Positions 7,297 to 47,640 of a DNA stretch of 64,000 bases are shown here, one piece after another. A program made the position numbers and the translations under genes. Below the pieces are notes generated by a model. It was not told the DNA's origin. It was given only the letters and a program-made list of their open reading frames with translations, and did no database searches. Location: assembly GCA_032622095.1 (NCBI GenBank), contig CP136066.1, positions 8,579,784-8,643,783 on the forward strand. Reading direction: 5' to 3'. Origin of the DNA: Siphonodentalium dalli. Lineage: Eukaryota > Mollusca > Scaphopoda > Gadilida > Siphonodentaliidae. Each line of letters opens with the position of its first letter. The stretch's first letter is position 1.

Positions 7297-7695
7297 TTAA
7301 CCCTTTACCCAACAAACCGGCCAAAACCGGCCAAATAAAGCTTCAACAGCCTAAAATATCTTCGGTCTGTCTCAATAGAACCATACAAATATGGATATCA
7401 TTGGAATCGGCTCCTTGACCACATTGTGATAGTTACAGTTAGCCCTGTGCCAATGCATTCTCTTATATATGCGAGTCGACCATATGTCGCCTCGCATATA
7501 TAAGAGAATGCATTGGCCTAAAAAAAATCTTTTTTTTACACTGTTTACCATTTTTACTTACATTCTTTAACAATTTTATAATTTTTAATGTGTTAAGCCA
7601 ATGCATTCTCTTATATATGCGAGGCGACCTATGGTCGACTCGCATATATAAGAGAATGCATTGGCACAGGGCCCTTCTGTTGGGTAAAGGGTTAA
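7297..7695 (-). mobile_element. TTAA-type MITE family 1, copy 3 (inverted)
   Basis: Same element in reverse orientation: the single-copy interior comes first and the double-hairpin half comes last. TTAA is present at both ends. It lies within intron 3 of the putative receptor gene. Confidence 0.85.
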
Positions 7696-18851: not shown

Positions 18852-19239
18852 TTAACCCTTTACCCAACAGAAGGGCCCTGTGCCAATGCATTCTCTTATA
18901 TATGCTAGTCGACCATAGGTCGCCTCGCATATATAAGAGAATGCATTGGCTTAACACATTAAAAATTATAAAATTGTTAAAGAATGTAAGAAAAAATGGT
19001 AAAAAGTGTTTTTTTAGGCCAATGCATTCTCTTGTATATGCGAGGCGACCTATGGTCGACTCGCATATATAAGAGAATGCATTGGCACAGGGCATAACTG
19101 TAACTATCACAATGTGGTCAAGGAGCCGGTTCCCATGATATCCATATTTGTATGGTTCTATTGAGACAGACCGAAGATATTTTAGGCTGTTGGAGCTTTA
19201 TTTGGCCGGTTTTGGCCGGTTTGTTGGGTAAAGGGTTAA
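18852..19239 (+). mobile_element. TTAA-type MITE family 1, copy 4
   Basis: Same ends and double-hairpin interior as copy 1, with TTAA on both sides. The central spacer is about 10 bp shorter ('AAAGTGTTTTTTTAGGCC'). Confidence 0.85.
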
Positions 19240-21236: not shown

Positions 21237-22628
21237 GTTGTCGATCCTCGATTCCAATATTCCAACTGTAAAATAGAATGGTTTTGTTCCCGCTGGCAAC
21301 TTTATACTGTCTGCTGTTAATGGTACACTACATAACTAAAAGCTACGATTTCGTCCCCCTGAGTAAGAATAAATCCATGAAATCCATAATAAAACCCAAC
21401 GTCACGACGAACTGTTGGCCTCGCTGCACTCCCCGTGCAACAGATACAGTGCATTATAGGAACGTAATGATCCGTAAGTTCACAAAGCAATGCGCATCGC
21501 GATTCAATTCAGTTAAATTTATTTCTGTTAATCGATATGTAGATATTACAGACAAAATATATATGACATCAAAATATTCAATTATGACATAATAACGATA
21601 ACTTTCACACGAGGAATACATGAGTGATTAGATACTTGGTAAATTTCCGCTCGGGTGATGATTTCAGGTGCATTGGGCGGGGAAGTTATGGCCAGGGACG
21701 TAGGTATTTTTAAAATAGGGGTGGGTACATGGCATATCAGTATTATATCCCTGACTTTCCTTATGAAAGTTGACAGATTCATAATTGTCTTTTTATTTCT
21801 AGTCTTAAATAGTTCTGAGAGTTTGTGGAATCGATAGGTACCTCTGTGAAATAAATGCTGATCAACTCAATACTTGATTGTTGTCAGATAGTATCTGATG
21901 ATTTTTGGTGCAAAAGTATGCTTTTTTGTATATCGTGATGCATCACTTCAGACATTCACGATGCGATGCATAGACACAAAATGCGATGCATTGAAATGGC
22001 GATGAATCGTTGCAGCCCTAGTTCATTTATTGCAGTACGATATATGTCCGTCAAATTAAACATGTTTATACCGAATTATTTCTCCCATTTCAGCTAAACA
22101 TAATGGAATGCTATTGTATATATATATATGATGGGTGTATTAATTAGATATCACATTTTTGCCATGAGAGACCTATTATTGACATCGGGTGATATCACTT
22201 CAAACTCGGCTGATAACCCACTAAACTCGACTGATATCGGTTGTGACGTCACCGATTGAAGCGCAGTGTTACATCCAACGTAACAGATATTCGGGGATGC
22301 AGTTGCAGTGCTATATGCCGATATAACGACAATTACATAATATACTTGAAGTAATGGCCTGTCATGGTATATTTCATGTTATTGGTATTTACTGCGTAAT
22401 TTAAATGAAATCGCGAATTTCTACTCGTGCGTTGTCATACACAAATTTACAACTCTTCGACGTCGTACTTGTAGTTATTTCGTTTATATTATTCCTGTTG
22501 TCCATTCATGTTTATGTTTACACCGGTGAACTGAAATTGGAATGGATAGTTATGGTATAACATAATACTGTTGATCTAATTAATAACGTATAACGGAACT
22601 CGTCAATGAATATGTAGACAAGAAGGTT
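21237..22628. other. Upstream region of the putative receptor gene, no feature resolved
   Basis: This should hold the 5' UTR and possibly the promoter of the minus-strand gene, but I see no TATA box or initiator I would defend. It is AT-rich with a short (TA)n at about 22115-22128. Confidence 0.35.
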
Positions 22629-22878
22629 TTAAAGGTCGCGCCGGAACAGCATTAAAGATCATGTGCCAGTGCATTCTCTTATATGCGAGTCTCTCATGGG
22701 GAGCCTCGCATATGTAAAAGAATGCTTTGGCCTGACAATATTTACACTGACCTTGTAAGCCATTGAATTATCTTATATATGCGAGGCTCCCAATGGGAGA
22801 CTCGCATATATATAAGAAGATACATGCACTGGCGCAGGATCTTTAATGCAGCACCAGAGTCCTGTCGTGCAAGGGTTA
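22629..22878. mobile_element. Diverged TTAA-type MITE (family 1 relative) with satellite-like ends
   Basis: TTAA is at the left and TTAG at the right. The interior has the same plan as MITE family 1: two palindromes built on 'GCATTCTCTTATAT' around 'GAGTCTCTCATGGGGAGCCTC' and its inverse. The ends differ: the right end is 'CTTTAATGCAGCACCAGAGT' then 'CCTGTCGTGCAAGGGTTA'. That terminal segment matches the monomer of the 37-bp satellite at 45331-47194. Confidence 0.75.
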
Positions 22879-23194
22879 GTGTTTCGCCCATTTGAACGTC
22901 ACTGTCACACTATGCATGTTCTGTTTGTCTTATTTTATTTGTTTCTTTGTGTGTAGGGGTGTAAGCCACCGACTGCATGCCTCGTTGTATATACAACTGA
23001 GCATCTCATATAGTGATTGATTTATTGAGAGTCTAATGTTTTTTCAATCGTCACGCCGTGTAACGACATGATCATGGTGCATATATACTACAAAGGACAT
23101 CGTTCCTGAATTATGCGTGATGTTATTAGTTCAAAGGGTGGAAATTAGGTGACTTGTTTTAGCGGACACAAGTATTTATGAAAACTAGATTATT

Positions 23195-23581
23195 TTAACC
23201 CTTTACCCAACAGAAGGGCCCTGTGCCAATGCATTCTCTTATATATGCGAGTCGACCATAGGTCGCCTCGCATATATAAGAGAATGCATTGGCTTAACAC
23301 ATTACAAATTATAAAATTGTTAAAGAATGTAAGAAAAAATGGTAAAAAGTTTTTTTTAGGCCAATGCATTCTCTTATATATGCGAGGCGACCTATGGTCG
23401 ACTCGCATATATAAGAGAATGCATTGGCACAGGGCATAACTGTAACTATCACAATGTGGTCAAGGAGCCGGTTCCAATGATATCCATATTTGTATGGTTC
23501 TATTGAGACAGACCGAAGATATTTTAGGCCGTTGAAGCTTTATTTGGCCGGTTTTGGCCGGTTTGTTGGGTAAAGGGTTAA
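23195..23581 (+). mobile_element. TTAA-type MITE family 1, copy 5
   Basis: Same ends, TTAA on both sides and double-hairpin interior as the other copies, with a spacer shortened by about 10 bp ('AAAAAGTTTTTTTTAGGCC'). Confidence 0.85.
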
Positions 23582-25454: not shown

Positions 25455-25515
25455 CAAGATTACTACATGATCTTTAATGCCGCACCAGCGCTGATCTCGT
25501 CGTGAAATGGTTAGG
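25455..25515 (+). repeat. Single unit of the 37-bp satellite / MITE-end sequence
   Basis: 'GATCTTTAATGCCGCACCAG' then 'CGCTGATCTCGTCGTGAAATGGTTA' matches both the end of the 22629-22878 MITE and the monomer of the 45-47 kb satellite. It sits at the truncation point of the retrotransposon fragment. Confidence 0.65.
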
Positions 25516-35021: not shown

Positions 35022-35860
35022 GTGTTTCACACCACATTAAACAACCCATTGGATATGGGTGAACTTGAGAAAGCAGTAAAATCATTAAATAATGCGAAGG
35101 CTCTAGGTTTGGACAAAATAATTAACAAATATATTAACGATTCATTTTTTAAATTGCAACATCTATCTGATACTATTCAACATTATATTGAAAACAGGCT
35201 TTATCCCACCCAGTTGGAGTGTCGGCCAAATTAAGCACGTGTACACGTCCGGTAACCAGCAATCATCCAGTAATTATAGACATATAACTCTAGTTAGCTG
35301 CCTTGGTAAATTATTGTCAAGTATCTTAAGTTCGAGAATACAAGGTTTCCTAGATACGAGTGGTGTTATGACAGTCAGGCAGGATCCCGAAAACAGTTGT
35401 CAACATTGGACCATTTGTCTACATTGAATACAATGATTAACCCTTTACCCAACAAACCGGCCAAAACCGGCCAAATAAAGCTTCAACAGCCTAAAATATC
35501 TTCGGTCTGTCTCAATAGAACCATACAAATATGGATATCATTGGAACCGGCTCCTTGACCGCATTGTGATAGTTACAGTTATGCCCTGTGCCAATGCATT
35601 CTCTTATATATGCGAGTCGACCATAGGTCGCCTCGCATATATAAGAGAATGCATTGGCCTAAAAAAATTCTTTAACAATTTTATAATTTTTAATGTGTTA
35701 AGCCAATGCATTCTCTTATATATGCGAGCCGACCTATGGTCGACTCGCATATATAAGAGAATGCATTGGCACAGGGCCCTTCTGTTGGGTAAAGGGTTAT
35801 TACATTGTAGGCTTCATTGTGCTTTCAGTGGTCAATGAAGCGTTTTATTTGTAAGGTTCT
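35022..35860 (+). pseudogene. Frameshifted reverse-transcriptase fragment of a non-LTR retrotransposon, split by a MITE
   Basis: The first frame (35022-35234) carries LNNPLDMGELEKAVKSLNNA and KALGLDKIIN, the conserved N-terminal RT block ('K...APG.D.I..E'). It shifts near 35188 to a second frame with PPSWSVGQIKHVY and SSNYRHITLVSCLGKLLSSI, the block that normally reads 'W....I.P..K...P...YRPI.L'. A second shift near 35370 gives QAGSRKQLSTLDHL, the 'QAGFR...ST.DH' block. MITE copy 6 (35437-35800) then interrupts. After it, 'TTCATTGTGCTTTCAGTGGT' and 'CAATGAAGCGTTT' look like the decayed next block ('CAF.DF.KAFD'). The active-site box is not visible. Dead fragment. Confidence 0.75.
35437..35800 (-). 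mobile_element. TTAA-type MITE family 1, copy 6 (inverted, inside a retrotransposon)
   Basis: Reverse orientation, with the shortest spacer between the hairpins ('CTAAAAAAATTCTTTAACAA'). The left flank is TTAA and the right flank TTAT. It interrupts the reverse-transcriptase frame just after the ST.DH block. Confidence 0.85.
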
Positions 35861-36473: not shown

Positions 36474-36970
36474 GGAATCCTATTACGGCCACTTGCTAAT
36501 GGCGCTTTCGGCGCTTTCGGCGCGATGCGCCGAAAGCGCCGAAAGCGACAAAAAGTGCGCCATTAGTAACGCGCCGAAAGCGCCGAAAGCGCCGAAAGCG
36601 ACAAAAAGTGCGCCGTAACGGCGCACTATTTGTCGCTTTCGGCGCTTTCGGCGCTTTCGGCGCGCGCCGAAACAACGCTAATGGCGCACTTTTTGTCGCT
36701 TTCGGCGCGCGCGCCGAAAGCGCCGAAAGCGACAAAAAGTGCGCCGATCGGCGCACATTTTGTCGCTTTCGGCGCTTTCGGCGCGCGCCGAAACAACGCT
36801 AATGGCGCACTTTTTGTCGCTTTCGGCGCGCGCGCCGAAAGCGCCGAAAGCGACAAAAAGTGCGCCGATCGGCGCACATTTTGTCGCTTTCGGCGCTTTC
36901 GGCGCGATGCGCCGAAAGCGACAAAAGGTGCGCCGAAAGCGCCTTTAGCAAGTGGCCGTAATAGGATTCC
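36474..36970. mobile_element. GC-rich foldback element, copy 1
   Basis: The ends are inverted: GGAATCCTATTACGGCCACT at the left and its inverse at the right. The interior is almost wholly nested palindromes built from 'GGCGCTTTCGGCGC', 'GCGACAAAAAGTGCGCC' and 'GATCGGCGCAC'. The apparent long ORFs on both strands (AFGAFGA..., APKAPKA...) are artefacts of this repeat. It sits within AT-rich sequence and interrupts a copy of repeat C. Confidence 0.9.
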
Positions 36971-39271: not shown

Positions 39272-39723
39272 GCGCTAATGGCGCACCGCGCCGAATGCCC
39301 TAATGGCGCACTTTCTGTCGCTTTCGGCGCGGTGCGCCGAAAGCGCCGAAAGCGACAAAAAGTGCGCCGATCGGCGCACATTTTGTCGCTTTCGGCGCTT
39401 TCGGCGCGCGCCGAAACAACGCTAATGGCGCACTTTTTGTCGCTTTCGGCGCGCGCGCCGAAAGCGCCGAAAGCGACAAAAAGTGCGCCGATCGGCGCAC
39501 ATTTTGTCGCTTTCGGCGCTTTCGGCGCTTTCGGCGCGCGCCGAAACAACGCTAATGGCGCACTTTTTGTCGCTTTCGGCGCGCGCGCCGAAAGCGCCGA
39601 AAGCGACAAAAAGTGCGCCGATCGGCGCACATTTTGTCGCTTTCGGCGCTTTCGGCGCGATGCGCCGAAAGCGACAAAAAGTGCGCCGAAAGCGCCATTA
39701 GCAAGTGGCCGTAATAGGATTCC
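39272..39723. mobile_element. GC-rich foldback element, copy 2 (left end lost)
   Basis: Nearly the same interior and right end as copy 1 (ending in GTGGCCGTAATAGGATTCC), but the left side starts at 'GCGCTAATGGCGCACCGCGC' without the terminal repeat. One internal unit has an extra 'GCTTTCGGC', as expected of replication slippage in such repeats. Confidence 0.88.
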
Positions 39724-44710: not shown

Positions 44711-45330
44711 TACCTGTTTTAGGCGCCAATCGAGGACCCATGACGGAACACCACCAAATGAGGACTTTAGTGTTACCAATAGATAGCGAGAAAAGAAATG
44801 ACTGTTGATATTCTCTATGTGTCTACTAACGTGTTTAAGGGTATAAATTTGCTGCAATATTGCATATTTAGAACGTGACTTTTGCCCAGCAAATGGGGAC
44901 CTCGTGTGTAACAATTGAGGACTCGATTTACACACCTCTGATTCATGAATGCACACTGTCAATTACGGACATAGATACAAAAATGCCTTCCGAGGACCAA
45001 CTGATGCAAGCTACCAAATGGAGACTACCCCGGCATTATAACATATTCGACGAGCACTATGGAGCTCATTAGGGCAAGGGGTATTGTTTTACAAATGTAT
45101 GGATTGTGTGTATTATTTTCGGTGTGAGTCCTGACGAAGAAGTATTTTTCTCTAAATTACTATACTGTACATCGCGTCATAAACGTGTACGTTTTTTTAT
45201 GACTGGTACCAAACATATTCTGGTATAAGATTTGATCAGTCGCCTGTCGCCACTGGTTGTCACTAATATGAATCATACGTGACACATAGTGGGGCAACCA
45301 CACATGCTGTATCCCGAATTTGCTTTTCAT
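44711..45330 (+). repeat. Macrosatellite M, diverged copy
   Basis: 'AGATAGCGAGAAAAGAAATG', 'TTGCTGCAATATTGCATATT', 'GAATGCACACTGTCAATTAC', 'GAGGACCAACTGATGCA' and 'AATGGAGACTACCCCGGCAT' match the unit that dominates 47.6-61 kb. It continues into the 'TTCTGGTATAAGATTTGATC' segment, then meets the 37-bp satellite. Confidence 0.75.
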
Positions 45331-47194
45331 CACCAACGCAGGTCCCTTCATAAAAGAATTAATGCTGCACCAGCACAAATGCCGTCATGAAATGGTTAAT
45401 GCTGCACCAATGCAGCTCCCGTCATTAAAGGGTTAATGCTGCACCAGCACAGCTCCCGTCATGAAATGGTTAATGCTGCACAGCACAGCTCCCGCCATGA
45501 AAGGGTTAATGATGCACCAACGCAGCTCCCAACATGGAAGGTTAATGCTGCACCAGCACAGATCCCATCATAAAATAATTAATGCTGCACCAACGCAGCT
45601 CCCGTCATGAAATAATTAATGTTGCACCAGCGCAGCTCCCGTCATGAAAGGGTTTATTGCTGCACCAGCGCAGCTCCCGTCGTGAAATGGTTAATGCTGC
45701 ACCAACGCAGCTCCCGTCATGAAAGGGTTAATACTGCACCAACGCAGCTCCCATCATAAAAATGTTAATGCGGCACCAGCACAGCTCCCCGTCATGAAAG
45801 GGTTAATGCTGCACCAGCACAGATCCCATCATAAAATAATTAATGCTGCACCAACGCAGATCCCGTCACGAAAGAATTAATGCTGCCCCAACGCAGCTCC
45901 CGTCATGGGAGACTTAATGCTGCACCAGCACAGCTCCCGTCATGAAAGGGTTAATGCTGCACCAACGCAACCCCCATCATAAAAGAATAAATGCTGCACC
46001 AGCACAGCTCCCATCATAAATAATTAATGCTGCACCAGCTCAGTTCCTTTCATGAAAGGATTAATCCTGCACCAACGCAGCTCCCGCCATGAAAGGGTTA
46101 ATGGTGTTGCACCAAAGCAGCTCCCATCATAAAATAATTAACGCTGCACCAGCACATCTCCCGTCATGAAATAATTAATGCTGCCCCAACGCAGCTCCCG
46201 TAATGAAATAATTAATGCTGCACCAGCACATCTCCCGTCATAAAAAGGTTAATGTTGCACCAGCGCAGCTCCCGTCGTGAAAATGGTAATGCTGCACCAG
46301 CACAGCTCCCTTCATGAAATGGTTAATGCTGCACCAACGCAGCTCCCGTCATGAAAGGGATATTGCTGCACCAGCACAGCTCCCGTCATGAAATGGTTAA
46401 TGCTGCACCAACGCAGCTCCCGTCATAAAAAAGGTTAATGCTGCACCAGCACAGCTCCCATCATAAAATAATTAATGCTGCACCTGCACAGCTCCCATCA
46501 TAAAAAATTAATGCTGCACCAGCACAGTTCCTTTCGTGAAATGGTTAATACTGCACCGACGCAGCTCCAGTCACGAAAGGGTTAATGCTGCACCAACGCA
46601 GCTCCCATAATAAAATAATTAATGCTGCACCAACGCAGGTTCCGTCGAGAAATAATTAATGCTGCACCAGCGCAGCTCCCGTCATGAAAGGTAAATGCTG
46701 CACCAGCGCAGCTCCCATTATGAATGGGTTAATGCTGCACCAACACAGCTCCCGTCATGAAATAATTAATGCTGCACCAGCGCAGCTCCCGTCACGAAAG
46801 GGTTAATGCTGCACCCGCGCAGCCCCCATCATGAATGGGTTAATGCTGCACCAACGCAGCTCCCATCATAAAAAATGTTAATGCTGCACCAGCACAGCTC
46901 CCATCATAAAATAATTAATGTTTCACCAGCACATTTCCTTTCATAAAAGGGTTAATGCTGCACCAGCACAGCTCCCGTCATGAACAAGTTAATGCTGCAC
47001 CGACGCAGCTCCCATCGTGAAAGTGTTAATGCTGCACCAGCACATCTCCCCGTCATGAAAGGTTAATGCTGCACCAGCACAGCTCCCGTCGTGAAATTGT
47101 TAATGCTGCACCAACACAGCTCCCGTAATAAAAACATTAATGCTGCACCAGCGCATCTCCCATCGTGAATGGGTTAATGCTGCACCTACGCAGC
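45331..47194 (+). repeat. 37-bp satellite array, about 50 monomers
   Basis: The monomer is TTAATGCTGCACCAGCACAG followed by CTCCCGTCATGAAAGGG. Two monomer types intermix, one with CACCAGC(A/G)CAGC and one with CACCAACGCAGC. Variation is by substitution and 1-2-bp indels near AAAGGG (AAATGG, AAATAA). The monomer matches the terminal segment of the TTAA MITE at 22629-22878, including the final AAGGGTTA. Not a CRISPR: units are continuous with no unique spacers. Confidence 0.95.
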
Positions 47195-47640
47195 AAACAT
47201 GACGTAAATGACGCCATGAGCCGTGGCATTTCATCTCGTTGTTCCACTACCGATTCCGCAATTTTAAACAGTTGCTAATCGGTCAGTTGCTAAATCACGT
47301 GTCAATTTCGCTAAATAGCATACACTCTTTCCTGAAATTCCTCTCATCGTATAGAAAATATAAAAAAAATTATATGACGTCATTCACCTGCCTAATGTAT
47401 AAACAACAACGCTCGCCTGCGGCGAGCTGGTGGTTGCTATAATATTGCCAGAGGCCAGGCATGTTCAAGGACACATCGATTCATAGATATTTGTGTGATA
47501 AAACATTGAAAACGACAGAAAAATCCTATTTCCCGAAATTTAGGTTACGCATGAAATAGTTGCGCAAAATTAGGCAATTTCGCCTTTTTTGGGGTGGGAA
47601 ACCCCTCACATTGTGTGTGGTTCAAGCCGGTACGTCGAAG
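47195..47640. other. Non-coding stretch
   Basis: Single-copy in this window. It contains a small palindrome CTCGCCTGCGGCGAG at 47412-47426 and no recognised gene. Confidence 0.4.

Follow-up and report, generated by a model that had tools for sequence, protein, structure and literature searches.

How a satellite can come to consist of the end of a transposon, and whether it was built at the place where it is now found, are the questions raised by a tandem array in the 64-kb stretch of DNA analysed here (the window; C6:8,579,784-8,643,783 of genome G000, 2.23 Gb in 9 contigs, which was searched). TRF found one array in the window, at 45331-47194 on the forward strand, with a period of 37, 50.3 copies, 80% matches and the unit TTAATGCTGCACCAGCRCAGCTCCCGTCATGAAAGGG. 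The initial annotation had described a 37-bp satellite of about 50 units with monomers starting in TTAA, and this description agrees with the copy number and with the presence of TTAA in nearly every unit. Splitting at TTAA recovered 50 monomers, in which TTAA and the TGCTGCACC block were near-invariant and the TTAATGCTGCACCA block was almost unchanging as well; AGC/AAC and GGG/TGG/TAA were found as two-state positions. Both borders of the array fall within a unit. Related arrays, for which 40 of 2179 candidates were scored, occur at dozens of sites on several chromosomes. Most of the arrays read lie between HINE flanks or truncated HINE flanks and the others are attached to MITEs; long self-standing arrays without a mobile carrier, as expected of a classical satellite, were not found among them. 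At one locus (L042, ~875-1466 in array orientation) a TTAA element, AGGGGTACTGTACGCC ... GGCGTACAGTACCCCT, is apparently inserted at a TTAA of the 37-bp array, and judging from this case the arrays themselves appear to serve as insertion targets. The window also contains GC-rich palindromic tandem repeats (CGCTTTCGG / CCGAAAGCG units) at 36571-36906 and 39300-39689, which are unrelated to the 37-bp array.

The array unit is the TIR end of an abundant TTAA-type (piggyBac-like) MITE family. A query with window positions 22600-22900 gave 82 matches, with about 40 scored places of 6590 candidates, and the aligned family copies constitute a foldback MITE of the structure TTAA, CCCTTTCATGACGGGAGCTGYGCTGGTGCAGCA, TTAA, AGATCCTGTGCCAGTGCATTCTCTTATATATGCGAG ... 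plus the mirror, with the ends CCCTTTCATGAC. In the family alignment the satellite unit equals the first 37 bp of the MITE read as the reverse complement; it comprises the outer 37 bp, from the terminal TTAA (the target duplication) to a second TTAA inside the TIR. The consensus of 76 MITE-borne units differs from that of 1304 array units at polymorphic positions only, and the 20-mer AGGATCTTTAATGCTGCACC, consisting of MITE interior, inner TTAA and monomer start, has 7173 genomic copies (reversed control: 0). The alignment of the monomer with the right end of a MITE, which had been noticed for the copy at 22639-22878, is thus true of the family consensus; a chance likeness of this one copy, with a family end unlike the monomer, is contradicted by the family-wide match.

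The window copy itself is a degenerate foldback TTAA MITE (22639-22879, no strand assigned) with a right-end unit at 22843-22875, followed by TTAG, and a damaged left TIR; it is the family, not this copy, that carries the case. A locus on another contig (L002, C8:150,694,815-150,695,115) exhibits 97% identity to window positions 22600-22900 across the whole query; as this identity includes the flanks, the window MITE is part of a longer stretch that has been duplicated. The lone unit at 25455-25515, which had been proposed to be an intermediate or a solo end, turned out to be a truncated MITE end (25465-25514, forward strand), in which the interior ACATGATCT precedes the TTAA of one unit (25474-25510), followed by TTAG.

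With regard to the class of the family, TTAA is found on both sides of the MITE, as in piggyBac-type elements; in the aligned copies L003-L020 most of the intact outer ends have TTAA and are followed by unrelated DNA. The terminal motif CC[C/T]T, a rule for piggyBac-type MITEs (PMC2872659), is present as well, TTAACCCTTYCATGA having 42,340 genomic copies (control: 12). Kolobok MITEs have an RR (AGG...) terminal sequence (PMC6004289), and because the family ends in CCC rather than AGG, this identity was dropped and the piggyBac type is preferred. Many piggyBac-type transposases with an intact frame (PF13843) are encoded in the genome; the MITE TIR was not found in the flanks of 10 of these transposase families, for which short windows at a minority of copies were read. 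Helitron_like_N proteins are also abundant, some of them exceeding 2500 aa. The machineries of both element kinds are present in the genome; as partners of the MITE and HINE ends described here, these proteins are candidates only. Six window segments (556-789, 2739-2969, 7443-7675, 18872-19092, 23215-23434 and 35584-35780) contain the palindromic core of the MITE in a different element with TTAACCCTTTACCCAACA ends. The ends have thus been exchanged around a common core, a situation similar to that in the coral CMITEs. At C1:736,392-921,612, the MITE-end 20-mer is spaced at about 14,558 bp and later at 11,175 bp, which reflects a large tandem repeat carrying the MITE.

Many copies of this MITE group carry a second TIR type (CCCTTCCATGACTGGAGCTTCCTGAAATTTTG...), which has only the outer ~24 bp in common with the first and differs in its inner part. 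This second TIR has formed its own, independent array, which supports tandemisation of MITE ends. At one locus (L130, C1:542,250-544,050) 8.6 copies of the 33-bp unit TTAACCCTTCCATGACTGGAGTTACCTCCCTTA (C1:542,288-542,568), which likewise starts at TTAA, stand in front of a MITE that has this second TIR. The arrangement of array and MITE recurs 1.47 kb further on (1-320 and 1513-1796 of the locus).

INTERMEDIATES exist elsewhere in the genome, as self-nested MITEs, dimers and MITE-attached arrays. A MITE within the inner TTAA of another MITE was found at 34 exact places with the junction AGGATCT-TTAA-CCCTTTCATGA and at 21 with AGGATCT-TTAA-CCCTTCCATGA, i.e., at 55 exact junctions in total, with controls of 0. 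A rough chance estimate (42,340/2 x 7,173 / ~16.5 million TTAA sites, the latter derived from 7.4 TTAA/kb in the window) predicts about 9 such junctions, or perhaps 20 with a looser context. The observed number, which includes some segmental duplicates (L124/L127), exceeds this rough estimate only a few-fold, which is a point against the explanation favoured below, and self-insertion therefore needs no special hotspot. At many of the nested loci read (e.g., L054, L059, L063, L064, L068) the terminal unit of the host lies beyond the guest, which identifies them as true insertions. In two nests with direct orientation (L090, L128) the guest end and the host end together form an in-register head-to-tail dimer.

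In addition, MITEs with two units (L088, L091) and with three units (L089, L094) were found, as well as longer MITE-attached arrays of about 10 (L085), 13 (L082 and L115) and 19 units (L093 and L116). All of them begin at the inner TTAA, and L085, L115 and L116 terminate in GGG-TTAA with unrelated DNA after it. Loci with 2-5 monomers attached to a MITE, which the initial annotation had named as a sign of such an origin, are therefore present, and larger arrays reach 19 units. The short arrays with exact TTAA borders that it had also named were likewise encountered elsewhere in the genome, with a start at the inner TTAA and, for the longer ones, a TTAA end; the window array does not have such borders. 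Three further candidates (L086, L087, L092) were rejected as dimers, having one unit plus about 9 matching bases, and are chance or partial cases. A mismatch-tolerant dimer pattern also matches the interiors of HINE arrays (AATAATTAATG context) and does not represent a count of MITE dimers. At one locus (L123, C6:201,432,000-201,433,150) three to four MITEs stand end to end at TTAA, with a terminal unit only in the last one. At a MITE junction on C5 (L129, C5:107,148,910-107,149,660; ~490-530), a 38-bp palindrome, CCCTTTCAGTGCCAAGTCCGATTTTGGCACTGAAAGGG, lies between two TTAA sites and is perhaps among the smallest TTAA-type elements.

As to the origin of the first tandem units, nesting is somewhat favoured as the usual seed. 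Its main rival is slippage between the two TTAA sites, which we regard as possible and as the less probable of the two. Being 33 bp apart, these sites are direct repeats of 4 bp, and the segment between them could be duplicated in single MITEs by slippage or by end joining, a tandemisation without transposition. Unequal exchange would then do the rest and the nests would be incidental; the later step, in which a HINE takes up the array, would be unchanged. The two-unit loci L088 and L091 fit this alternative, as they are single MITEs without a surrounding host MITE, although a dimer-ended MITE could also have moved as a unit and would then stand without its host. Homogenised units in L082 and L093 point in the same direction. 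In L082, units 3-13 carry one common variant, CATAGCTCACTTCATG, as local amplification would lead one to expect, and the array has therefore probably grown in this way and not by 13 insertions. The nested or concatenated MITEs of L123 and L125 have a single terminal unit, which means that a dimer is not an invariable product of self-insertion or that units can disappear afterwards; these one-unit nests, too, are in favour of duplication without transposition, as is the 33-bp array of the other TIR, whose joints are also TTA/TTAA. Against it stands the fact that nesting at the inner TTAA demonstrably gives a dimer in L090 and L128.

The window array is not a free satellite; it forms the core of tandem repeats in a Helentron-like (HINE) element. 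The complete HINE/Helentron-like non-autonomous element extends from 45265 to 47439 on the forward strand and is flanked by T (45264) and T (47440), with no longer target duplication apparent. Its left terminal segment, AATATGAATCATACGTGACACATAGTGGGGCAACCACACATGC...TTTTCAT (45265-45330, forward strand), is common to the array-free relatives L119-L121. In its right segment (47187-47439, forward strand), the stretch CCTACGCAGC|AAACATGACGTAAATGACG has a homologous counterpart in L120, which lacks an array. A 3′ terminal hairpin (47404-47436, forward strand; z -2.4) is followed by GCTA. As in other HINEs, precise conserved ends with unrelated flanks are present, together with this hairpin and a subterminal inverted repeat, GTGGTTGC being the inverse of the left-end GCAACCAC. 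The arrays L021-L050, oriented alike, have a common left segment starting with AATATGAATCATACGTGACACRTAGTGGRGCAACCAC and a common right segment ending with ...AACCACGCTCGCCTGCGGCGAGCTGGTGGTTGCTA, and beyond these flanks the alignment shows unrelated DNA; the ends of the HINE are AATATGAATCATACGTGACAC...GGTTGCTA. In the copies read, the base before the element is T, and so is, in most of them, the base after it. A left-flank microsatellite of the Cg_HINE type was not found between the left end and the array in the copies examined. To our knowledge, such a microsatellite is typical of Cg_HINE and not required of all HINEs. An early reading of the borders as those of a simple satellite with TTAA ends was dropped once the common flanks emerged. 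Longer HINE ends, as suggested by flank likeness among L021, L023, L025, L026 and L028, were also rejected; the window HINE has its surrounding host DNA in common with copies on C2, and this likeness is therefore explained by duplication of a larger segment.

The left-end pattern of the HINE has 2109 copies genome-wide and the array-side right block 164, a difference that is partly due to other HINE variants without this block. Array-free relatives are L119 (complete, ~500 bp), L120 and L121; in L117 a complete element has an array of no more than about 10 units. L120 retains CCTGCGAAGCCAACATGACGTAAATTACGTCAT, which is homologous to the right junction CCTACGAAGCCAACATGACGTAAATGACGTCAT, and the left array border lies inside a unit, between CAT and CACCAACGCAGG, not at TTAA. 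The homology in L120 implies that the array replaced part of the HINE core, with borders inside the unit. One pattern representing the exact HINE junction of a precursor without an array was tried genome-wide and gave 0 matches. The route from transposon end to satellite that had been proposed, by insertion or end joining at TTAA, is thus supported by the MITE-attached arrays and inner-TTAA insertions elsewhere and fails for the window array, which has no TTAA borders and no MITE. As the core of an element present at dozens of sites, this array owes its location to the spread of the HINE and to duplication of a segment; insertion at TTAA did not bring it there.

The last three bases of the unit, GGG, are critical for the transposon. 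MITE-borne units retain them in 54 of 76 cases and units of MITE-attached arrays in 35 of 39, yet units of HINE arrays in only 306 of 1304, with TAA instead in 421 of these 1304. The decay of GGG in HINE arrays and its retention at MITEs fit a succession from MITE to array to HINE, with the constraint being lost in the HINE. No transition from a MITE-attached array to a HINE was encountered among the loci read. The reverse order, with a 37-bp array first present in a HINE and the MITE taking its TIRs from satellite units, is very improbable. HINEs are numerous and their arrays are old and diverged (~80% matches), as such an order would have it. It is disfavoured because the outer ~24 bp recur in the second TIR type, whose inner part is unlike that of the first, a pattern that a functional end would be expected to show, and because array-free HINEs form the wider group (2109 left ends vs. 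164 array-side right blocks); the restriction of GGG decay to HINE arrays speaks against it as well. A free satellite formed in place by tandem TTAA insertion in the window would account for the TTAA in nearly all units and is refuted by the borders inside units, which are common to the arrays keeping both flanks and are followed by conserved HINE ends. A coincidence or an assembly artefact as the source of the paired TTAA sites and of the monomer match, for which nothing was found in favour, is refuted by the 7173 exact MITE-end 20-mers against a control of 0 and by the dozens of independent places, spread over several chromosomes, where arrays occur.

The best explanation, to which we assign a probability of roughly three in four, is tandemisation of a MITE end followed by capture and dispersal of the array by a HINE. 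The identity of unit and TIR end, the nesting at the inner TTAA, the dimers and MITE-attached arrays, the HINE as carrier and its array-free relatives are direct observations; from these we infer the order of events, the mode of expansion, the capture event and the identity of the transposase. The unit would be a terminal TIR segment that happens to lie between two TTAA sites. As the transposon targets TTAA, some insertions would hit the inner TTAA of another copy, and in direct orientation guest end, TTAA and host end would yield an exact head-to-tail 37-bp dimer. Such dimers may act as seeds, with unequal exchange or slippage in the 37-bp register expanding the MITE-adjoining arrays to 10-19 units. 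A Helentron-like rolling-circle element would then have exchanged part of its core for an array, with breakpoints inside the unit, possibly through filler DNA or template switching during HINE replication. At the right junction of the HINE, CACCAGCGCAGC and GGCCTGCGAAGC exhibit partial homology. Replication of the HINE itself, together with segment duplication, could have spread arrays of about 10-85 units genome-wide, the window array being one of them. Whether this amounts to a relay of two transposons, in which a cut-and-paste element with TTAA in its TIR makes a satellite of its end and a rolling-circle element adopts and broadcasts it, is in our view an even bet, and the same odds apply to the idea that all stages of such a relay still coexist in one genome.

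Accounts of how transposons give rise to satellites usually rest on end products. The genome searched here contains single ends, dimers from self-insertion and arrays of 3, 10, 13 and 19 units in a register set by the target site, and because the 37-bp unit is also the core of a different mobile element, birth and dispersal of the satellite can be counted separately. This offers a testable rule, namely that a TIR containing its own target site tends to tandemise, and suggests a possible source for the core repeats of HINEs.

Double TE insertion has reportedly been described as a satellite seed by McGurk and Barbash in 2018, with target-site preference leading to tandem dimers that seed arrays. 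That case concerned whole elements, whereas here the repeated segment is a piece of a TIR, delimited by a subterminal target site. Each component of the present case has a known precedent, including TIR-derived satellites, tandem piggyBac MITEs, repeats in TTAA-MITEs, HINE-borne arrays and double-insertion seeds; for the combination of a TTAA-register route with a HINE relay no equivalent was found in the literature searched, which mostly comprised sources other than subscription journals. The CMITEs of Acropora (PMC2872659) resemble the MITE family in their TTAA duplication, CCCTTT ends, tandem arrays and a core that is better conserved than the TIRs. Their arrays, however, repeat whole MITEs, whereas here only the end from TTAA to TTAA is repeated, in addition to nesting at the subterminal TTAA. 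The Tetris/TIR-220 satellite of Drosophila virilis likewise goes back to a sequence repeated in tandem in the TIR of a foldback element, but has a 220-bp unit, and no TTAA register, nested-insertion seed or HINE transfer is described for it (PMC4079207). In Xstir of the Xenopus Xmix T2-MITE, tandem repeats were also amplified within a MITE with TTAA target, though this MITE is of the Kolobok type with AGGRR ends and an internal segment, not the end, was amplified (PMC6004289). Among non-autonomous Helentron elements with central tandem repeats, Cg_HINE/Pearl of bivalves and DINE-1 of Drosophila (PMC7492417) are similar to the window HINE in having short conserved flanks around a tandem core, a subterminal inverted repeat, a 3′ palindrome and, as it appears from the flanking bases, a T-rich target without duplication. 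Related flanks with differing cores are a further likeness, as in Crassostrea gigas related Cg_HINE flanks carry unrelated tandem cores (PMC7492417). The window HINE differs from them in its 37-bp core unit, in arrays of up to ~85 units, in the lack of a visible left-flank microsatellite and in a subterminal repeat shorter than the 11-12 bp of the HINEs in PMC7492417. Finally, while most Cg_HINE cores are of unknown source, the core of this HINE can be traced to the end of a cut-and-paste transposon.
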